Of a stretch of 64,000 nt of DNA, positions 18,572 to 63,743 are shown piece after piece. Position numbers and translations under genes: made by a program. This stretch comes from Peribacillus asahii. GTDB taxonomy: Bacteria; Bacillota; Bacilli; Bacillales; DSM-1321. The stretch covers positions 2,962,001-3,026,000 of the forward strand of contig NZ_CP026095.1 in NCBI RefSeq assembly GCF_004006295.1. The letters are read 5' to 3'. Every line of letters starts with the position of its first letter. The stretch's first letter is position 1. Below the pieces are notes generated by a model. It saw only the letters and a program-made list of their open reading frames with translations, was not told where the DNA came from and made no database searches.

Positions 18572-20425
18572 ATCGAGTAGAGGGAAATTAATTTAACTAT
18601 TTTCGCCCCTCTCACACCACCGTACGTACGGTTCCGTATACGGCGGTTCAATTTATATTACAGTGTGTACTTTTAGATAATGTTCTAAAGCAGAGGGAAG
18701 CCCCCTCTGCTTTAGTCTTTTGTTTGAGATTGCTCTTTGAACAACTTTTGATAGTCCGATGTACCGATAACCTTTTCGACAGAAAGTTAATCCTTTCGCC
18801 TCTTCCTCTGGAATCCCTAATTGGACAAGCGATTTGATTTGTTTCTTCGCTACCTTCCATTGCTTCCAGATGATCACTCTAATTCTGGAGCGAAGCTTCT
18901 TATCTATCTCAGTCATCGCTTTTTTCATATTCGAGATTCTAAAGTAATTAACCCACCCAAGTATGACTTGTTTTAGTTTTAGAATTCGGTAGTCCAGCGG
19001 AACACTCCAATTTCGCTTTGTTAATTTTCGAAGCTTCCTTTGAAGTTTTTGTATGGATGTGAGATGGGGTTTTACTTGATATTTCTCATTCTTAAAATCG
19101 TAATAAAATCCAAATCCTAAGAATTTCAAATCTTTTGGACGGGAGATTTTACTCTTTTCTACATTGACTATCAACCCTAATTTCTTTTCTATAAATCCCA
19201 CGATTGATTCCATCACTCTATTGGCCGCTTTCTCACTTTTCACAAAGATGAGAGCGTCATCTGCGTATCTTACGAATCGAAGTCCTCTATTCTCAAGTTC
19301 CTTATCGAGTTCATTTAACATAATATTGCTCAATAACGGACTGAGGTTTCCTCCTTGCGGAGTTCCAATTGGTGTTTCTTCATATTTTCCATTCACCATA
19401 ACTCCACCGACTAAGTATTTCCTTATTAGAGAAATGACATCTCCATCATCAATTGTATTAGATATGATTCGCATGAGCTTATCGTGGTGGACTGTATCGA
19501 AGAATCTTTCCAGGTCAATGTCCACAACCCAGTCATGTCCATCGTTCAGAAATTCCAAACTTTTTATAATAGCCATCTCACAACTTCTTTTCGGTCTAAA
19601 GCCGTAACTGAATTCACTGAATTGCTTTTCAAATATCGGACTGAGTACTTGATGAATGGCTTGTTGAACGACCCTATCCACTACTGTTGGTATTCCCAAT
19701 TTGCGCATCTTTCCATTTTCTTTTGGGATCTCCACTCGTAAGGCAGCTTGTGGTTGGTATTTTCTTGTTCTGATGCGCTGGCGCAGTTCATCCTTGTTCT
19801 CTTTCAGATATTGCTTTAGTTCATCAACTGTTACTCCATCGACACCACTTGCACCCTTATTTTTATAAACACGCAAGTAAGCTTCATTCATGTTTTGATT
19901 ACTTAGAATCTGTTCTAAAAGTTCCACACTCGTTTCTCCTTCCTTCTCACGTAGTAAGTGATAGCCCCATTTTGGTTATTCTTTGAGATACGCTCATACT
20001 TTCACCATTAACACATTCGGAGTACGTCACTTACGCATTCGTGGCGTTGAAACACTATAAATTGTTCAGCCCTTCATGAATGGTTTCATTACTATGGCTT
20101 CTGCTGACTTCTTGCGGCTAACCTTTTTCGACTGTACTCCTGTACATCCGCAAGACCTCCCAGGGTAAGACAACTATCTTTCCTCTTTTACTCGCCTGAT
20201 TTACTCTACAAAGTTACGCACACCTTTTGGACTTTGACTTGCTTTGGAGTCTCATCCCTTTATAGAGCCTTAGTATCAGATTTCTGTTCGTCGAGCCAAG
20301 ATTTTATTCCACGCTTCCTCCAGCCCTTACCTCACGATAAGTACCTTGCGCTTCCTTAGTGGTTGGTCGATGTGTACCCCCACAGTGGACTTTCACCACC
20401 TAGATAGTTGCCATGCCTGGCACAC
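18572..20425 (-). mobile_element. Group II intron, class C (bacterial IIC)
   Basis: The intron RNA starts on the minus strand at GTGTGCCAGGCATGG (20425) with the usual CTATCTAGGTGGTGAAAGTCC soon after. It ends at CTACTCGAT (18572). Domain V is visible at about 18607-18648 with paired ACCGCCGTA/TACGGTGGT, a CGC triad and a GAAC tip; domain VI follows. It encodes a maturase without an endonuclease domain. The 5' exon ends in the stem and T tract of the fruA terminator and the 3' exon resumes with TTTATC, exactly the insertion preference of IIC introns. Confidence 0.88.
18653..19927 (-). CDS. ltrA: Group II intron reverse transcriptase/maturase
   Basis: This 424-residue intron-encoded protein begins with RT0 (AYLRVYKNKGASGVDGVTVD) and proceeds through GIPTVVDRVVQQAI, FRPKRSCEMAI, the catalytic YADD in LRFVRYADDALIF (~residue 222) and maturase domain X (WVNYFRISNMKKAM). 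There is no HNH endonuclease region, consistent with class C introns that reverse-transcribe into structured DNA after terminators. The frame is intact, so the intron may be mobile. Confidence 0.95.
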   Translation of the reverse strand: MELLEQILSNQNMNEAYLRVYKNKGASGVDGVTVDELKQYLKENKDELRQRIRTRKYQPQAALRVEIPKENGKMRKLGIPTVVDRVVQQAIHQVLSPIFEKQFSEFSYGFRPKRSCEMAIIKSLEFLNDGHDWVVDIDLERFFDTVHHDKLMRIISNTIDDGDVISLIRKYLVGGVMVNGKYEETPIGTPQGGNLSPLLSNIMLNELDKELENRGLRFVRYADDALIFVKSEKAANRVMESIVGFIEKKLGLIVNVEKSKISRPKDLKFLGFGFYYDFKNEKYQVKPHLTSIQKLQRKLRKLTKRNWSVPLDYRILKLKQVILGWVNYFRISNMKKAMTEIDKKLRSRIRVIIWKQWKVAKKQIKSLVQLGIPEEEAKGLTFCRKGYRYIGLSKVVQRAISNKRLKQRGLPSALEHYLKVHTVI

Positions 20426-34199: not shown

Positions 34200-34306
34200 T
34201 TCTCCTCATCTATCAAGCGCCCGCTTGCTGGATTTAGCACCTTAGCTTACACAGCTGGTTGCTGAGGATTCATCGGGCCAGTCCCTCCACCTCTCTCGAT
34301 AAGATT
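34200..34306 (-). promoter_or_regulatory. SAM-I (S-box) riboswitch upstream of yitJ-metH
   Basis: Minus-strand sequence starting CTTATCGAGAGAGGTGGAGG contains all S-box hallmarks: the kink-turn GGACTGGCCCGATGAA, CCTCAGCAACC, GGTGCTAAATCC and the closing strand near GATAGATGAG. SAM binding should favour the terminator at 34150-34188 and switch the methionine synthase operon off. No effector other than SAM is expected for this class. Confidence 0.97.
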
Positions 34307-42227: not shown

Positions 42228-42276
42228 CCTATACAAACAGGTTCGAACCTCAGTGAGCCGAACCTGTTTGTATAGG
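42228..42276. repeat. Perfect 18-bp inverted repeat
   Basis: CCTATACAAACAGGTTCG (42228-42245) is exactly complementary to CGAACCTGTTTGTATAGG (42259-42276), with a 13-base loop. There is no T tract, so a classical terminator is doubtful. The core CGAACCTCAGTG..CCGAACCTGTT recurs at 49913-49937. The remaining gap to 42607 shows no gene. Confidence 0.75.
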
Positions 42277-42607
42277 AAATTACGTCATACCAGCATTTAA
42301 AAGGCTATTTTGTCTGTTATAAATTTCTTTGAATACGTTTTTGACTACGATTGATAAAAAATACGTTATCGGAGGCAAGGGGATACAGACCTTAAAATTT
42401 TTTAGTTCTAATCATATCATTATTCATGTTATTGTAAGTGCTGAATATTACCAATAAAAGTAATTCCAACATTGAGCAGAGTTCCCTTATTTTCGAAATT
42501 AAATTACAATTGATAACTTTAATAATCCTCTTTATTATCTTTTAAACTTAAGTAGATAAGATTAGAGCCCCGTGTCCGGGGGGCGAAATAACAGTCAAAG
42601 TATTGAT

Positions 42608-42697
42608 TTAATAAGGTTTTACAAGTTCAATATGACAACCACGGGGTGTTGATACGACTACATTCAAATTTTTTACGGTTAAAAGAGGAGAAGCCAT
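42608..42697 (-). pseudogene. nikD: N-terminal fragment of a NikD/OppD-type ATPase gene
   Basis: Nine bases after the nikC stop, AAGGGAAG precedes an ATG opening MASPLLTVKNLNVVVSTPRG, the standard first 20 residues of NikD/DppD/OppD ABC ATPases (next expected: a Walker A region). The sequence then departs (CHIELVKPY) and stops after 29 codons. The missing gene normally follows nikC. A C-terminal piece of such an ATPase lies at 48274-48450 on the opposite strand. Confidence 0.8.
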
Positions 42698-42705
42698 CTT
42701 CCCTT

Positions 42706-43536
42706 CTATTCCTTTTTTAGGTCTAGAGCATCCCTTAAGGCCTCCCCAAACAAGTTAAAAGCAATCACAACGATGAAGATCATCATCCCCGGGTACAGCA
42801 TCAATGAAGGATTATTTCTAAAAAATGGCTTACTATCATTAATCATCATTCCCCATTCTGCCTCCGGCGGCTGTATGCCCAGGCCTAGAAAGGATAGGCC
42901 AGAAATAGATAAAATAACTCCCCCTATGTCCATAAAGACTAATACAATAACTTGAGAGATAATGGTAGGTAAAATATGTTTAATGACAATAATGAGCCTT
43001 GGTGTCCCGCATATTTTAGCTGCTAAGACAAAGTTTTGCTTCTTTACACTAAGAACCATCCCTCGAATAACACGAGCATAAAAAACCCATTGAACGAGCA
43101 CCATGGCCAAAATCAAATTACTAAGACTCGTTCCTAGGACTCCAATTAAAGCTAAGGATAGAAGAAAGCTTGGGAATGCCATGAGAGTATCACATAGTCT
43201 CATGAAGAAATAATCAACCTTACCGCCTCTAAAACCCGCATAAATACCAAGCGGGATACTTATCATCATCGTTAATCCCATGACAAGGAATGCTGTTCCC
43301 AATGAGATTTGTGTTCCATAGATTAATCGAGACAATATACATCTCCCTAAATGATCAGTACCTAATGGAAACTGGGAGGAAGGTCCTTGCAGTTTCTGCG
43401 TAATATCAATCAAGTTCGGATCATTAGGAGCAAAAAAAGGAGCAAAAAGAGCCAATACCATCATGAATAAAATAATCATGCTGCTAATCATCATGAGCTT
43501 ATGTAATAACAGCTTTCGTTTCACGTCTTGTAACAC
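42706..43536 (-). CDS. nikC: Nickel/cobalt/opine-metal ABC transporter permease (NikC/CntC-like)
   Basis: This 276-residue binding-protein-dependent permease of the dipeptide/nickel family has an N-terminal helix, the OppC_N region (LFAPFFAPNDPNLIDITQKL, FPLGTDHLGRCILSRLIYG) and the EAA loop with SGLSFLGLGIQPPEAEWG. I used GTG at 43536, eight bases after AAGGGGAG; an earlier in-frame start overlaps nikB. It follows nikB by 2 bp. Specificity is inferred from the riboswitch and the CntE-like neighbour. Confidence 0.88.
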   Translation of the reverse strand: MLQDVKRKLLLHKLMMISSMIILFMMVLALFAPFFAPNDPNLIDITQKLQGPSSQFPLGTDHLGRCILSRLIYGTQISLGTAFLVMGLTMMISIPLGIYAGFRGGKVDYFFMRLCDTLMAFPSFLLSLALIGVLGTSLSNLILAMVLVQWVFYARVIRGMVLSVKKQNFVLAAKICGTPRLIIVIKHILPTIISQVIVLVFMDIGGVILSISGLSFLGLGIQPPEAEWGMMINDSKPFFRNNPSLMLYPGMMIFIVVIAFNLFGEALRDALDLKKE

Positions 43537-43538
43537 TC

Positions 43539-44477
43539 TTATTTCTCCCCTTCCCATCGTATACGGGGATCCAGGAAAGAATACATAATATCCACAAGAA
43601 GATTACAGACCACAAAAATCACGCTCATAAATAATACACACCCCTGAATCATTGGATAATCTTGATTTAGAATAGATGTGACAAATAATTGTCCCATGCC
43701 AGGCCAAGCAAAAATTGTTTCAACAATTACCGCTCCGCCTAGCATGTTCCCTAAACTCATCCCAAGTCCAGTTATCACAGGCAATAAGGACTTTTTTAAA
43801 ACATGCCTGCTAACGATTAACCTTTGACGCAAGCCTCTTGCTCTAGCATACATAACAAATGGCTCATTCAAGTTTTCCAGCATACTAGCCCGAAGCAATC
43901 GCATATACGTACCTATATAACCAAAAGCAAGCGTTAAGGAGGGAAGCACTAGATGAGCCAAAGTTCCCCTCCCCAATACAGGAAATAAATCTAATTTCAC
44001 AGATAATAAATAGATCAAAAGAAATCCAAACCAAAAGGAAGGCATAGAGACACTTACAAAGGCAACTATTCTACTAAACTGATCAACAAATTTCCCCTTG
44101 TAAATAGCCGAAATTATTCCTATAGGTAGACTAATAACAACAATAAAGATAAGCGAAGCACCTGTTAATTGAATCGTTGGAAATAAATGCAACAATATCT
44201 CGTCCCATACAGCATTTTTGGATACATAGGACATTCCTAAATCCAATTGCAACACTTTCCCCAACCATTCTAAATACTGGATATATAATGGCTCATTTAA
44301 TCCAAGCTCAACTCGAAGGGCTGTTACGGCCTCATCCGTAGGTGGAATATTAGACATCCTTAAGTAGGCTACTGCTGGATCTCCAGGAATTAAATAAATC
44401 AGGATAAAAGTGATGAATGAGATTCCTAATACTATTGGAATTAAACTTGTGAGACGCTTAACAATAAACCAACCCAT
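43539..44477 (-). CDS. nikB: Nickel/cobalt/opine-metal ABC transporter permease (NikB/CntB-like)
   Basis: This 312-residue permease has the N-terminal helix and the typical IPGDPAVAYLRMSNIPP, ELGLNEPLYIQYLEWLGKVL and C-terminal FAWPGMGQLFVTSILNQDYPM stretches of NikB/DppB proteins, with about six membrane segments. AAGGAG precedes the ATG. It is the second gene of the cobalamin-riboswitch-controlled operon nikABC. Confidence 0.9.
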   Translation of the reverse strand: MGWFIVKRLTSLIPIVLGISFITFILIYLIPGDPAVAYLRMSNIPPTDEAVTALRVELGLNEPLYIQYLEWLGKVLQLDLGMSYVSKNAVWDEILLHLFPTIQLTGASLIFIVVISLPIGIISAIYKGKFVDQFSRIVAFVSVSMPSFWFGFLLIYLLSVKLDLFPVLGRGTLAHLVLPSLTLAFGYIGTYMRLLRASMLENLNEPFVMYARARGLRQRLIVSRHVLKKSLLPVITGLGMSLGNMLGGAVIVETIFAWPGMGQLFVTSILNQDYPMIQGCVLFMSVIFVVCNLLVDIMYSFLDPRIRWEGEK

Positions 44478-44513
44478 GTAGTACTCCTTAAGTTGTTTTT
44501 AATTATACTCAAT

Positions 44514-46145
44514 TTATTTAACATCAATTGAAGTTAAAGGCACCTCAACTTCTTGAGGTAAAAAATCTACCCCGCTAATATTTTTATGATACACGGCTAC
44601 ATTAGACTGATAAGATATTGGTAAGTAAACAGCTTGTTCATGCAAGGTCGTTAAAATATCTGTATATAACATTTTTCTCTCTTTTTCGTCTGTAGTTAAT
44701 AATACTTTCTTAATTTTTTGATCTAGTTCCTTCTTTTTAGGTAACCCTAGTAAAGCAGTGTAATCTGGACTTCCATTTTCCGAATCTGTCGTAATAGCAG
44801 CTAAATAAGAATGCGGGTCAAACGGTACAGCCCATGTTGATGTAAATAATAAATCATACTTACCTTCAAATGCGGTTGTCCAAAAAGTATTTGTTTCCTG
44901 ACTAATCAATTTAATATCTATCCCTAGTTTTCTAAAATCACCTTGAACAAATTCTGCGATTGACTTTTGAATGTTGTCTGTACTATTAAATAGAAGTTCC
45001 AGTTGCAACTCTTTTCCGTCTTTTTCTCTAAATGGTTTCCCTTCTACCTTTTTCCATCCAGCCTCATCCAATAACTGTTCTGCTTTTGCGGCATCATATT
45101 CATAAGGATCTACATTAATCTTTGTGTAATCCAAAACAGGTGGAAATAAAGTATCAGCCTTTTCTTCCATACCATAAAAAATATTATCGATAACAGCCTG
45201 TTTATTAAAAGCATGGTTGAGAGCTAACCGAACTTTACGATCTTTAGTAGCTTCGTTATTTGTGTTAAAAAGCAGCGTTCTTGTAGCTGTAGGTTCTGAC
45301 AATTTGGTTTCATATTTTCCAGAATTCTTCAAGAATTGGAATGAATCTTGGCTGATGACGCCGTTACCAAAAATAAAATCAAGTTCCTTTTTCTCAAAAG
45401 CTAATACTCTAGACTCGCCGTCCGTAATAACTTTAACAACTACCTTATCTACTTTAGGTTTAGTATCCCAATACTGTTCGTTTCTTTCGAATACAGCAAA
45501 CTCATTTTTCTTATATTCGGTCAATACCCATGGACCAGTACCAATCGGCGACTTGAGTCCGTCCTTAAATGTATTTTGACTGTCAGGAAAAGCAGCTTCG
45601 CCCACAAATCTCAAAGGTCTGACATAAGTTAGTTCTTGAAGAGTCGGATAATACGAGTTATTTAAAGTAAGTTTAAATGTATATTCATCGACTACTTCTG
45701 TACTTTTAATTTGATTAATTAATTCCACCCATTCATGTTGTTTACGATTATCTAAAACCGTATCAAAGTTTTTCTTAACGATTTCAGCATTAAATGGCGA
45801 ACCATCAGAAAATTGAACATCTTTTCTCAAATGGAATACATATTCTTTTCCATCTTTCGATATATCCCAGCTCTCTGCTAACCAAGGCTGAATTTCTCCA
45901 CCTTCACCGTAATAAACAAGAGGTTCGTATACCATAGCCTGGGAAAAAAATTCATTTGGAAAATAAGTATGTGGATTTAAGTCACCAATATCTCCCGGCC
46001 AAGAAAAAGTAACAACTTTTGTTTTTTCTTTATCTGACGCATTTTCTTGATCTTTTGTTGTGTTGCTGCAACCAGCAACAAAGATTGTGAACATTACTAG
46101 TAGTCCAACAAATGAACGAAATAAATTAGATCTTTTTAAAAGCAT
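44514..46145 (-). CDS. nikA: Metal/metallophore-binding lipoprotein (NikA/CntA-like)
   Basis: This 543-residue extracytoplasmic solute-binding protein (SBP_bac_5) has a lipoprotein signal peptide with lipobox VAGC (~residue 26). Core segments GDIGDLNPHTYFPNEFFSQA and MVYEPLVYYGEGGEIQPWLA match the nickel/opine-binding subgroup (NikA, S. aureus CntA). A cobalamin riboswitch and terminator lie immediately upstream, pointing to cobalt or a cobalt chelate as ligand. Nickel, zinc or peptides remain possible. Confidence 0.88.
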   Translation of the reverse strand: MLLKRSNLFRSFVGLLVMFTIFVAGCSNTTKDQENASDKEKTKVVTFSWPGDIGDLNPHTYFPNEFFSQAMVYEPLVYYGEGGEIQPWLAESWDISKDGKEYVFHLRKDVQFSDGSPFNAEIVKKNFDTVLDNRKQHEWVELINQIKSTEVVDEYTFKLTLNNSYYPTLQELTYVRPLRFVGEAAFPDSQNTFKDGLKSPIGTGPWVLTEYKKNEFAVFERNEQYWDTKPKVDKVVVKVITDGESRVLAFEKKELDFIFGNGVISQDSFQFLKNSGKYETKLSEPTATRTLLFNTNNEATKDRKVRLALNHAFNKQAVIDNIFYGMEEKADTLFPPVLDYTKINVDPYEYDAAKAEQLLDEAGWKKVEGKPFREKDGKELQLELLFNSTDNIQKSIAEFVQGDFRKLGIDIKLISQETNTFWTTAFEGKYDLLFTSTWAVPFDPHSYLAAITTDSENGSPDYTALLGLPKKKELDQKIKKVLLTTDEKERKMLYTDILTTLHEQAVYLPISYQSNVAVYHKNISGVDFLPQEVEVPLTSIDVK

Positions 46146-46197
46146 ATTTTCTCACCTTCAATTACAAATTTTAATTATTCGATAAAATATAAACTAC

Positions 46198-46240
46198 AAA
46201 AAAAGCATTCCTAACCAGAATTTATCAGGTCAGAAATGCC
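46198..46240 (-). terminator. Terminator of the nikABC cobalamin riboswitch
   Basis: On the minus strand GCATTTCTGACC pairs with GGTTAGGAATGC around an 11-base loop, then TTTTTTT. It ends ~50 bp before the nikA start and should form when the aptamer is ligand-bound. Confidence 0.88.
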
Positions 46241-46312
46241 TATAGCTTCAGAACAAGTTCGTCTTCATAGCACTCTAATACCTCCCTATCTCCCGTAGGT
46301 TTAACAGCATTT

Positions 46313-46485
46313 CTAGAACGGGCAGGTCTTCTGACTTAGGTTCATCATCTCTATGCGCCTTCCCGGATATTATCCAGTGGCTCTTATACATAGGACTCCC
46401 CTTTACAGCGGCGGGACCGTGCCGGATTTTGCACCGGCTTCCCATTTAAGTATTCGCAATTAAACGAATACACCCATTCCAATAC
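46313..46485 (-). promoter_or_regulatory. Cobalamin riboswitch upstream of nikABC
   Basis: Minus-strand sequence has the B12-aptamer core: GGGAAGCCGGTGCAAAATCC, GGCACGGTCCCGCCGCTGTA, GCCACTGG (B12 box), GGGAAGGCGCATAGAGATGA and the closing AAGTCAGAAGACCTGCCC. Cobalamin should trigger the terminator at 46198-46240 and repress uptake when B12 is plentiful. Confidence 0.96.
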
Positions 46486-46947
46486 CATATGAAATTTTTC
46501 TTTATCTTCATAATGAAATATAAAGCTTATCTAGCTTGAACATGATTAAGTGAAAATCATTTGTAAACTATTATATTTTATTAGTTTCAACCTTAAGTAA
46601 TTTTTGATAAATTCAGCCACTAACCCTATCTATAAACGAAATACAGTAAATAAGAAAGAAATTACACATGTTCTCTCAAAATGGAAATATTCACTTCATG
46701 GAAATGAAATCAAAAAAAGTTTACCTATCACAAATTATATTCGTTATTGCAAATTTATGCTATATCAAATTATGATCCTGATGTTTTTTGGAATGAAACA
46801 TAATACATAAGAACTGTTAGTAGCATTACAGTGATAATAGATAAAAAAAGGCAACTTCACCTAAAGGCGAAATTTGCCCAAAATCAAAAAGAATCCATCC
46901 ATCACCTTGTTCGAATTAGCTTCTTTAAAGGAGACTGGAATGCGAAC

Positions 46948-47113
46948 TTAGTTAATCACATTCAAAACTTCTTGCTTGTAACGCTCCCTCAAGATCTTAG
47001 CGATATCGACCATTCTCTTAAGAGCAGCAAATGTTTCATCTATTTTTCTTGTTTTAAGACCGCAATCAGGATTACCCACAGAATAACTAGTAAGAAACTT
47101 TTGATTACACTAG
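46948..47113 (-). pseudogene. metE: C-terminal remnant of cobalamin-independent methionine synthase (MetE)
   Basis: On the minus strand a frame reads VGNPDCGLKTRKIDETFAAL, then KRMVDIAKILRERY, ending ~50 codons later at 46948. The NPDCGLKTR zinc-Cys motif and the following helix are diagnostic of the MetE C-terminus. Upstream the frame meets a TAG (about 47114) and no further metE sequence is visible. It sits between two cobalamin riboswitches; metE is a common B12-riboswitch target. The rest of 46486-47257 contains no gene I can support. Confidence 0.78.
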
Positions 47114-47257
47114 ATATTTTAGTCAGTTTTTTCAGAAGTAATGTCTAGATCGCCAAGCTATAGCGCGGTAAGTGGAAATATTGGTGTTAAAGGAACAACT
47201 AGAAAACCTTGACACATATGTGAAGTGTGATATAGCACTCCATAATCGAATATTATG

Positions 47258-47425
47258 TAATGCTGGTGCCAGATTGTTTAATCTGGCTTAAAAGGGAAAC
47301 CGGTGAAAGTCCGGTACTGTCCCGCAACTGTAAATGAGAGCTACCTACAAATAACCACTGTCGAATGACGGGAAGGTGTAGTTTAGTGATAATCATAAGT
47401 CAGGAGACCTGCCAGTGATTTACAA
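47258..47425 (+). promoter_or_regulatory. Cobalamin riboswitch upstream of the CntE-like exporter
   Basis: The plus strand carries GGGAAACCGGTGAAAGTCC, GGTACTGTCCCGCAACTGTA, AACCACTGTCG (B12 box), GGGAAGGTGTAGTTTAGTGA and AAGTCAGGAGACCTGCC, the complete cobalamin aptamer core. It is divergent from the nikABC riboswitch and in sequence clearly a different copy. It feeds into the terminator at 47511-47543. Confidence 0.96.
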
Positions 47426-47510
47426 CATCGAAAAAACCTACGGAGGATAGGGAGATGTTAGAACACTTGCATGACTTGTACAAATATGTACTTTTACATA
47501 GAATCGTTTT

Positions 47511-47543
47511 CACAGCTACTACCTTGTGTAGGAGCTGTTTTTT
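47511..47543 (+). terminator. Terminator of the exporter-side cobalamin riboswitch
   Basis: ACAGCTACTAC and GTAGGAGCTGT pair (one bulge) and are followed by TTTTTT. It lies ~110 bp before the exporter start. Confidence 0.8.
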
Positions 47544-47650
47544 ATTGCATGGGGATGTGAAGAAATAGAGAGGAGAATCGATAATAGTGAAGCAAAAATT
47601 CAATAAGAGGAACTATACAAGTATCAGGGGAAATAGGTGAGGAGCAGCCG

Positions 47651-48325
47651 TTGAACGTAAAACCTATAAGCTTCAAAATGATCCAGCTCTATTTGCTATC
47701 GATGCTATTCTTTACAGCTAATTCCGTATTGACTGTAATTTTCCCTCTACAGGCAGAGCATTATGGCTTTAAAACCTCTGAGATTGGAATCATGATGGGG
47801 CTCTACATGTTTGTTTGTATGTTCTTACGCCCATTTGCTGGACAAATGATTGCTAAATATGGTGTTAAAAAAGTGATGTGGACGTTACTCATTGTTCATG
47901 CACTAGCACTAGTATTGTATGTCTGGTTAGAAGTGGATAGCTTGTATGCTGTTCGATCACTCCAAGGTGTGGTCACAGCCTTCTTCTCTATGTCGATGCA
48001 AATCGGGATTACAGATATTTTACGAGATAAGGATCGTGGACAAGGGATGGCCATGTATTCACTTTCTACGGTGCTACCAGGATTGTACGGACCTGCACTA
48101 GCCCTGTATTTATGGTCGGATATGCAAGCCATTTATGTATTGGTCATCATTCTTGCGCTGCTACCACTACTTCTACAATTTAGAACACCATTTGAAGAAA
48201 CGAAAATAGAGTTCAAGCCCTTTTCTCTTAAACTCGTAAAAGAAAGTTTTTTTAGCGCTCCAAATAAACTGTTATCTCAGAAATGGCTGATTACGTCGCG
48301 GTTATGCAGAATGGTCATCTTGTAG
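47651..48325 (+). pseudogene. Truncated CntE-like MFS exporter
   Basis: The first ~205 residues are an MFS half-protein closely resembling the opine-metallophore exporter CntE by recall: LYLLSMLFFTANSVLTVIFP, GIMMGLYMFVCMFLRPFAGQ, SLQGVVTAFFSMSMQIGITD and AMYSLSTVLPGLYGPALALY. About six membrane segments are present, half the expected twelve. Near 48270 the sequence switches to the tail of a NikD-type ATPase in another frame, and this frame ends after KWLITSRLCRMVIL. It starts with TTG after GAGGAG, behind a cobalamin riboswitch. Probably non-functional. Confidence 0.8.
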
Positions 48326-48450
48326 AGCAAGCAAATGTATTTGATTTATTCGATTCACCACAGCATGCATATACAAAGCAATTGCTTGATGCACGCCCTA
48401 CTTTACACATAAACCCATCTACAAGGGAGGTTTCATATGAGTCTTCTTGA
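48274..48450 (+). pseudogene. nikD: C-terminal fragment of a NikD/OppD-type ATPase gene
   Basis: From about 48274 a different frame reads ISEMADYVAVMQNGHLVEQ, then NVFDLFDSPQHAYTKQLLDA, the post-H-loop region and tail of NikD/OppD ATPases, ending in TGA at 48448-48450. It has no start and no Walker motifs. It overlaps the next ATPase start by 14 bp, the usual nikD-nikE arrangement. The N-terminal piece of such a gene is at 42608-42697 on the minus strand; ~190 middle residues are absent from the window. Confidence 0.82.
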
Positions 48451-49252
48451 CGTAAAACAAATTTCTCACACTTATAAGACGAATTCAATGTTTAAGCCCC
48501 ATCATAAACGTACTGTATTAAACGATATTTCATTCTCAATTGACGAAGGCAGTTGCTTTGCAATGCTTGGTTCAAGCGGCGCTGGGAAAAGTACGATTGG
48601 GAAAATTATGCTTGGTATAGAAAAAACAACACAAGGATCTGTACAATTTATGGGACATGACCTTTATACAATTGATAAAAAATTAAAGCACCAGTTACGC
48701 CGTGATTTGCAGGTTGTGTTTCAAGATTCGTATTCATCAGTGAATCCGCGCATGACAGCCGAACAGATTATTGCCGAGCCACTCAGAAATTATGAGAAGC
48801 TTTCTGCTACGGAACAAAAACGCTCAATTATAGAACTACTTGAACACGTTGGTCTAAACAAAAGGGATTTAATAAAATACCCACATGAATTCAGCGGCGG
48901 TCAGCTCCAGCGAATTAACATTGCACGTGCGCTGTCTCTAAAGCCGAAGTTAATCGTATTAGATGAGCCAGTGAGCAGCCTGGATATGGTCAATCAAACG
49001 CTCATTTTAGAGCTTTTAAATAACCTAAAAAAGGAACTCGGTTTGACCTATTTCTTTATTACACATGATATTAAAGCCGCGCATATGCTAGCGGATCAGC
49101 TCGGTATTTTAGAAAAAGGACAACTTGTGGAAGTCTTTAATAATCCTAGTGAGTTTTTTACTTCTGTTCACCCCGTTGTTCATCAATTACGCAGTGCCAT
49201 ATTAGCCGAGCATCCAAGTAGTCGCACAATCCGTAGCAACAAACGTCCATAA
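48437..49252 (+). CDS. nikE: ABC transporter ATP-binding protein (NikE/CntF-like)
   Basis: This 271-residue ATPase has Walker A GSSGAGKSTIGK (~residue 45), Q-loop VVFQDSYSSVNPRM (~95), signature FSGGQLQRINIARAL (~154), Walker B LIVLDEP and the H-loop ITHD. Its family (OppF/NikE) pairs with a NikD-type subunit, but only fragments of such a gene remain here. The gene itself is intact, with AAGGGAGG upstream. Its natural partners NikBC are on the opposite strand ~5 kb away. Confidence 0.9.
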   Translation: MSLLDVKQISHTYKTNSMFKPHHKRTVLNDISFSIDEGSCFAMLGSSGAGKSTIGKIMLGIEKTTQGSVQFMGHDLYTIDKKLKHQLRRDLQVVFQDSYSSVNPRMTAEQIIAEPLRNYEKLSATEQKRSIIELLEHVGLNKRDLIKYPHEFSGGQLQRINIARALSLKPKLIVLDEPVSSLDMVNQTLILELLNNLKKELGLTYFFITHDIKAAHMLADQLGILEKGQLVEVFNNPSEFFTSVHPVVHQLRSAILAEHPSSRTIRSNKRP

Positions 49253-49290
49253 GAAAGGTATGCCTTCTACATTGTTGAAAACAACTTTAT

Positions 49291-49333
49291 CAACGAAAGA
49301 TCTATGAAAAATCATCGGTCTTTCGTTGTTTTT
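49291..49333 (+). terminator. nikE terminator
   Basis: CAACGAAAGA and TCTTTCGTTG pair around an 18-base loop, followed by TTTTTATATAG. Confidence 0.85.
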
Positions 49334-49589
49334 ATATAGAATAGATTTTATTTCATGTGGCTTTCGATGTTTAGATTAATTTTAAAGTATAGAGAAATCG
49401 GGGTTCATCTTGGTTGAGAGGCTGAGTATAAAGCTAGCCCTTACAGGTAAAGAAAATGGCTTTGAATTTGCTGATTTACCCTTAAATTTATTGAAGCAAA
49501 TTATGAAAGTACGTCATTCGATTAACAGTGGCAAATTTAATTACCACATATACACAAATAGATTGAAGTATACTATTGCCTAAAGTATA

Positions 49590-49805
49590 TTGAAGCATAT
49601 CATTGCCAATTCGGCAAGATTATGGTTCGAGTCACACATGCATAATCACTCCTTAATATTGTTGGAAGCTGGTGCAGCCATTAAAGAAGTACAGGATCGA
49701 TTAGGGCAGACTGATGTACAAACCACAATGAATATCTATGCACACGTTACAAAAAAAGCAAAAGCAAAGGCTATGCAAAAATTTGAAAAGTACCTCAATA
49801 TTTGA
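49590..49805 (+). pseudogene. Tyrosine recombinase (phage integrase) C-terminal remnant
   Basis: The frame ends with SLILLEAGAAIKEVQDRLGQ and TDVQTTMNIYAHVTKKAK, the terminal box of phage-type integrases including the catalytic Tyr in NIYAHVT. The Arg of the HxLR box is not recognisable and no upstream integrase domain exists; 49334-49589 shows only short decayed frames and a 27-bp near-repeat. It marks a former integration event next to the rearranged metal locus. Confidence 0.7.
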
Positions 49806-49856
49806 CTACAGTTGAATACGATTCGATGAAATTAATTGAAATAGCCAAAAAGAAAA

Positions 49857-49880
49857 AACCCTTGATTTTCAAGGGTTTTG
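49857..49880. terminator. Hairpin with T tail after the integrase remnant
   Basis: AACCCTTGA and TCAAGGGTT pair around TTT, followed on the plus strand by TTGACA. A-rich on the left, so it may serve the minus strand too, for the DUF2639 gene. Confidence 0.55.
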
Positions 49881-49912
49881 ACACTATTTGATATCCAATG
49901 ATATCTATATAT

Positions 49913-49937
49913 CGAACCTCAGTGGCCCGAACCTGTT
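49913..49937. repeat. Second copy of the CGAACCTCAGTG repeat
   Basis: CGAACCTCAGTGGCCCGAAC followed by CTGTT matches 42244-42268 at 23 of 25 positions, but the outer palindrome arms seen there are not conserved. Confidence 0.6.
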
Positions 49938-63615: not shown

Positions 63616-63743
63616 CTCTTATCAAGAGCAGGCTGAGGGATATGGCCCTATGACGCCCAGCAACCGACCGCAATATGTGGAGAAATAATCCGCAAGGCAC
63701 GGTGCTAATTCCATCAGAAAGAATTCTTTCTGAAAGATAAGAG
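63616..63743 (+). promoter_or_regulatory. SAM-I (S-box) riboswitch upstream of mtnK
   Basis: P1 strands CTCTTATC (63616-63623) and GATAAGAG (63736-63743) enclose the core AGGCTGAGGGATATGGCCC, TGACGCCCAGCAACCG and AAGGCACGGTGCTAATTCC. Downstream GAGGTTTGAA can pair with TTTCAAAGCCTC as antiterminator, competing with the terminator at 63763-63795. Confidence 0.97.

Follow-up and report, generated by a model that had tools for sequence, protein, structure and literature searches.

Gene content and boundaries

The window analysed here, a stretch of 64,000 nucleotides from Peribacillus asahii (assembly GCF_004006295.1, contig NZ_CP026095.1, positions 2,962,001 to 3,026,000 of the forward strand), contains a divergent cluster of metal-transport genes in which a minus-strand nikABC operon and a plus-strand unit of an exporter fragment and nikE are each headed by a cobalamin (B12) riboswitch (Table 1). 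The genes for the binding lipoprotein NikA, the permeases NikB and NikC and the ATPase NikE are intact. The exporter, of the major facilitator superfamily (MFS), survives as an N-terminal fragment, and no complete NikD is encoded on the island because both of its nikD copies are truncated, leaving one of the two ATPases. A first-pass annotation had proposed that the two arms derive from a cobalt-dedicated opine-metallophore system. The evidence presented below points instead, with good confidence, to a decayed integrative island that carries a B12-repressed Nik uptake module and a dead exporter gene.

Table 1. Features of the island, in order of position in the window (bit scores are followed by model cut-offs)
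Feature	Position	Strand	Basis
Left edge repeat, att-like, 26 nt	42243..42268		Within a perfect palindrome with 18-bp arms
Genomic island	42269..49911		BLASTN of window against sister-genome locus L211; absent from G009
Remnant of the nikD that followed nikC, readable for about 21 codons from its start and degenerate beyond	42638..42697	-	Similarity to NikD of G010 and G022; start codon by eye
nikC, permease, 283 aa, intact	42706..43557	-	TIGR02790, 356.3 bits, slightly below cut-off 358.45; NF045474, 311 (300)
nikB, permease, 312 aa, intact	43539..44477	-	TIGR02789, 418 bits (447); NF045470, 409 (350)
nikA, substrate-binding lipoprotein, 543 aa, intact	44514..46145	-	TIGR02294, 684 bits (393)
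Terminator-like hairpin and T-run, minus-riboswitch expression platform	about 46205..46241	-	Folded alone, -21.2 kcal/mol
Cobalamin riboswitch aptamer of nikABC	46304..46492	-	RF00174, 123.7 bits, E about 1e-30
Cobalamin riboswitch aptamer 5' of exporter fragment	47249..47430	+	RF00174, 123.7 bits, E about 1e-30
Terminator-like hairpin and T-run, plus-riboswitch expression platform	about 47512..47538	+	Folded alone, -11.8 kcal/mol
Truncated MFS exporter ORF, 224 aa	47651..48325	+	Exporter-like up to about residue 200, followed by nikD sequence in a shifted frame
Tail of another nikD, unlike the first, with ~50 codons surviving	48271..48450	+	Out of the exporter frame; runs into nikE
nikE, ATPase, 271 aa, intact, nik2 lineage	48437..49252	+	TIGR02769, 352 bits (333)
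Tyrosine integrase C-terminal remnant, 73 aa	49584..49805	+	PF00589, 27.6 bits (27.1)
Right edge repeat	49912..49937		24/26 (92%) identical to left repeat

The limits of the island are defined by a sister genome, G009, in which contig C58 joins the equivalents of positions 42268 and 49912 directly (BLASTN) and matches the island flanks at 94-96% identity; no relative of NikA was found in that genome at a limit of 1e-100. With a direct repeat flanking it on either side and an unoccupied site in the sister genome, the 7.6 kb segment ranks among integrative elements. The tyrosine integrase remnant lies just inside the right edge, and no complete integrase is present on the island. The locus is thus very probably an integrative island that has by now partly decayed.

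Both riboswitches are full-length, in agreement with the first-pass annotation, and point away from one another. A terminator for each leader had also been proposed. In each case a hairpin followed by a T-run does precede the first gene, and these assignments rest on inspection and folding because a generic terminator scan (seven sites found, 4.3 expected) listed neither hairpin.

The nik genes

NikA clearly belongs to the NikA family. It scores 486 bits against the CntA model NF047575, for which the cut-off is 800 and a control CntA from genome G028 reaches 996; of the 'NikA/CntA-type' operon announced earlier, the nikABC genes and the NikA assignment stand and the CntA assignment falls. The protein is 99% identical to that of Peribacillus sp. 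Hz7 and 97% to that of P. asahii, and orthologues at or above 81% identity were taken from G010 (88%), G022 (87%), G038 (87%) and G411 (81%). A cobalamin riboswitch (RF00174, 119-128 bits) lies directly 5' of nikA in the window and in all four of these genomes, to which the leader scan extended; there are many further holders of this nikA, for example Brevibacillus laterosporus at 77-78%. In five loci with a NikA from other lineages (L133-L137, 48-53% identical) the scan found no such riboswitch, and there is none at the nik2 operon of the genome itself. These comparisons bear out the earlier claim of B12 control for a Nik-type importer, with cobalt probably as its cargo.

The ATPase genes have a more complex history. 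The five genomes with a riboswitch-headed nikA include two (G010 and G022) with a complete nikABCDE, and in the other three (G038, G411 and that of the window) neither nikD nor nikE was found after nikC, so that loss of the ATPases recurs in this lineage. The nikD remnant behind the island's nikC matches NikD of G010 and G022 at 67-71% over 17-18 residues (E values of 1.9e-5 and 2.7e-4). The plus-strand genes have a different origin: the nikD tail shares 72% identity over 47 residues with the NikD encoded by nik2 in the same genome, compared with 52% over 42 residues with NikD of the riboswitch-nik lineage, and NikE is 60-67% identical to NikE of annotated nik2 loci (55-67% over all listed matches except itself), compared with 50-51% to its counterpart in the riboswitch operon. 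A single nik operon of one lineage, split over both strands, was considered and rejected, since both plus-strand pieces, NikE and the nikD tail, belong with nik2.

What the island most likely still does is to take up cobalt or nickel under B12 repression through NikABC and NikE, with NikD borrowed from nik2. When adenosylcobalamin is low, the minus-strand riboswitch would permit transcription of nikABC and the plus-strand riboswitch would likewise permit expression of nikE. The missing NikD could be supplied by the complete nik2 operon located at 1.12 Mb in the same genome, and the assembled transporter would feed the cell's corrin synthesis with cobalt or nickel, probably imported in the form of a small chelate. 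With six cobalamin riboswitches in the genome besides these two, one of them 5' of bluB, B12-controlled provision of cobalt is to be expected here.

Several observations weigh against this account of a decayed island with a working uptake module. The GC content of the island is no different from that of its flanks, and promoter-like sites occur at chance level (33 against 28.1 expected, standard deviation 5.1). The 90% cluster of the truncated exporter holds six sequences, so the truncated form may be more than a single accident and its retention is conceivable. In addition, PMC2667541 names Arg97, Arg137, Tyr402 and His416 as site residues of Escherichia coli NikA. In an alignment read by eye, with the chain numbering taken as that of the mature protein, Arg137 is kept and Arg97, Tyr402 and His416 are replaced by Q, by F and, next to a gap, by E. 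Given the lost site residues, the complex bound by the island NikA may differ from that bound in E. coli.

The same source predicts B12-riboswitch NikABCDE systems to be cobalt importers in Clostridium tetani and Desulfitobacterium hafniense (PMC2667541). The island resembles them in having Nik-family ABC importer genes headed by a cobalamin riboswitch, and differs from these systems as described there in having lost the operon's nikD and nikE, in being integrative and in having a second, opposite-facing riboswitch. The import arm is thus of an already known kind and its novelty is low; what it adds is that cobalt-type uptake genes are seen on a B12-switched mobile island and are decaying there. 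A second route of B12-controlled cobalt supply in the same genome is CbiMNQO, which has its own cobalamin riboswitch and has a divergently oriented cob/cbi operon as its neighbour (gene names assigned by eye); it is of the ECF type, a transporter unrelated to Nik.

The truncated exporter and its relatives

The exporter ORF scores 195.7 bits against the CntE model NF047574, below the cut-off of 235, and covers model positions 4-217 of 388; its best-scoring local alignments to full-length relatives stop at residues 194-203. A deletion running from within the exporter to within nikD, fusing the 5' half of the former to the 3' end of the latter and leaving a dead stub, would be the simplest cause of this join. 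The gene order in G028, a genome of the same genus whose exporter is almost identical to that of P. simplex, is binding protein, exporter, insertion-sequence fragment (by eye) and nik2-type nikABCDE, an order that could have derived from an exporter-nikABCDE operon; such an operon behind a riboswitch was not found. An intact near copy of the exporter was likewise not found among the matches listed (the best 120 of 320 plus a further search; 124 proteins aligned). The best 25 matches are 60-65% identical over 184-205 residues, one other reaches 69% over a shorter stretch, and the two plasmid records (41% and 45% identical) are no close relatives.

In a tree of 37 MFS proteins, with groups drawn from pairwise identities beforehand, the window exporter groups with 11 proteins of a sister clade (support 99/96), apart from 15 CntE proteins, and a topology constrained to join the window exporter to CntE is rejected (p-AU 0.024). 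Another tree, built on 49 proteins, unites CntE with a Paenibacillus clade (92/100) to the exclusion of the window exporter, which sits there on a zero-length branch near the root and in no supported set; outgroup branches are long in these trees. By the first of these trees, the exporter belongs to a clade that is sister to CntE and lies outside CntE itself. The description of the gene as a CntE-like exporter accordingly holds for the wider family, and must be qualified as to clade and completeness.

Eight full-length proteins of the sister clade (L057:9820-11067 is among those scanned) score 354-371 bits against NF047574, above its cut-off, and true CntE proteins score about 700. This equivalog model therefore over-calls: names such as 'staphylopine family metallophore export MFS transporter CntE' take in the sister clade, and the database names of these exporters may overstate what is known of their function.

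Six of the 11 relative exporter loci lie just downstream of a nik/opp-type ABCDE operon (that at L107 has a binding protein only 26-28% like NikA), three of these with a true CntE in tandem, suggesting that the sister-clade exporter is likely to be linked to metal uptake. A cobalamin riboswitch was detected in none of the 11 loci at the Rfam threshold. B12 control of the exporter, one of the two arms for which the first-pass annotation had claimed it, is thus seen in the window alone.

It is possible, though somewhat doubtful, that the plus-strand riboswitch was rearranged from elsewhere, for example from a cobalt-transport operon, and that the exporter was never natively under B12 control, an explanation compatible with that of a decayed uptake island. 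The riboswitch-free relatives favour such a capture, as does the plus aptamer itself, which is 57% identical to the minus aptamer and nearest, at 64%, to the cbiMNQO aptamer of its own genome (11 others compared). However, the plus leader has the look of an ordinary expression platform: its CCTACG..GGATAGGG motif is found again, in altered form, downstream of the minus riboswitches and of two further cobalamin riboswitches in the genome. Nor was a seam located. A recent duplication of one island riboswitch into the other was rejected on the basis of the same 57% identity, since the minus aptamer is 89-92% identical to its orthologues.

Opine synthesis and the cargo of the exporter

Opine dehydrogenase was sought with PF10100 in 25 genomes; 11 matched, which shows the search capable of detecting it, and the genome of the window was not among them. 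The sister-clade exporter occurs in many more genomes, Lysinibacillus among them, than the 12 covered by the opine-gene count. Nine of these 12, including the window's own, lack opine dehydrogenase, and CntL shows the same pattern, with no match in eight of the 11 other genomes. In the genome of the window, the CntL match amounts to 20 bits over 55 residues, so that the absence of opine-synthesis genes, reported earlier for the window, extends to opine dehydrogenase and CntL in the whole genome, and the pair CntL and CntM was not found. Where opine dehydrogenase is present (G028, G085 and G426), the opine genes are about 66 kb from the exporter, 0.57 Mb from it and on a separate contig, respectively; they adjoin it in none of the 11 relative loci. 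An EamA-type exporter, in contrast, adjoins the CntL-like/opine-dehydrogenase loci in all four cases examined (G085, G426, G411 and G009).

These results make it very unlikely that the island descends from a cobalt-dedicated opine-metallophore system under B12 control, with the exporter sending the opine out and a CntABCDF-like importer bringing the complex in. Membership of the exporter in the wider CntE family, the scores of its full-length relatives above the CntE cut-off and the linkage of those relatives to nik/opp-type operons and to true CntE speak for that history. Against it stand the NikA score below the CntA cut-off, the sister-clade position of the exporter, the scarcity and remoteness of opine genes and the presence of a different exporter beside them. 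The first-pass annotation had held that its reading would fail if close homologues of the exporter grouped outside the CntE clade or if intact relatives never carried opine-synthesis genes, and this is largely what was seen in the genomes examined. In comparison with the Cnt systems for staphylopine and bacillopaline (CntKLM-ABCDF-E), the island shares an exporter fragment of the wider CntE family and an Opp/Nik-type importer, and differs in its NikA rather than CntA, its truncated sister-clade exporter, the cobalamin riboswitches in front and a genome in which neither opine dehydrogenase nor CntL was found. Within the open-access papers searched, nothing was found on a 'cobaltophore' or on a cobalamin riboswitch and a metallophore together.

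Another explanation is that proteins of the sister clade export a different chelator, perhaps a primary metabolite or siderophore-like compound, that is taken up again with its metal by a NikA-type importer, and that B12 control was acquired in this lineage. It would account for the nik-MFS operons of Domibacillus, Paenibacillus alkaliterrae and Alkalihalobacterium genomes that have neither opine dehydrogenase nor CntL, and is consistent with the lipoprotein, distantly like FecB, FepB and SstD (best scores 126 and 124 bits, none reaching its cut-off), that precedes the exporter in G028 and G085, with a look-alike in G013 (from the ORF list only). Since no biosynthetic gene was identified, the B12 switch occurs in the window only and the window exporter is broken, this explanation is considered unlikely for the island. 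The more far-reaching conjecture, that a CntE sister family widespread in Bacillales, often with nik-type importers and without opine genes, secretes a chelator (perhaps a primary metabolite), and that on the island this loop was B12-controlled as a cobalt-dedicated shuttle before decay, is quite improbable. The cargo of the sister clade is a clear, testable question.

Outside the window, a third Nik/Opp-type operon lies behind a cobalamin riboswitch (86 bits) in the same genome at C1:4.29 Mb (L013:9086-11036). It encodes an Opp5A/NikA-type binding protein (467.7 bits, cut-off 600), 35% identical to that of an opine operon in G009, where a CntL-like nicotianamine-synthase (NAS) gene (PF03059, 38 bits), opine dehydrogenase (508 bits), an EamA exporter, an Opp5A-type binding protein (727 bits) and permeases stand in a row on contig C65 (L219:9664-16222). 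For B12-controlled opine uptake, the L013 operon is a more promising place to search than the window.

In G208, a nikABCDE-exporter-CntE operon (L089:3559-18129) is flanked by two phage-type integrases and lies near a groEL-like gene (named by eye), suggesting that this module may be mobile too. Cobalamin riboswitches elsewhere in the genome of the window head an operon identified by eye as encoding ribonucleotide reductase (L011:2578-5177) and, at L012:4934-5835, bluB (TIGR02476, 222 bits, cut-off 150). The window further contains minus-strand matches to group II intron RNA (18572-20341) and two S-adenosylmethionine (SAM) riboswitches (34203-34305 on the minus strand and 63616-63743 on the plus strand).

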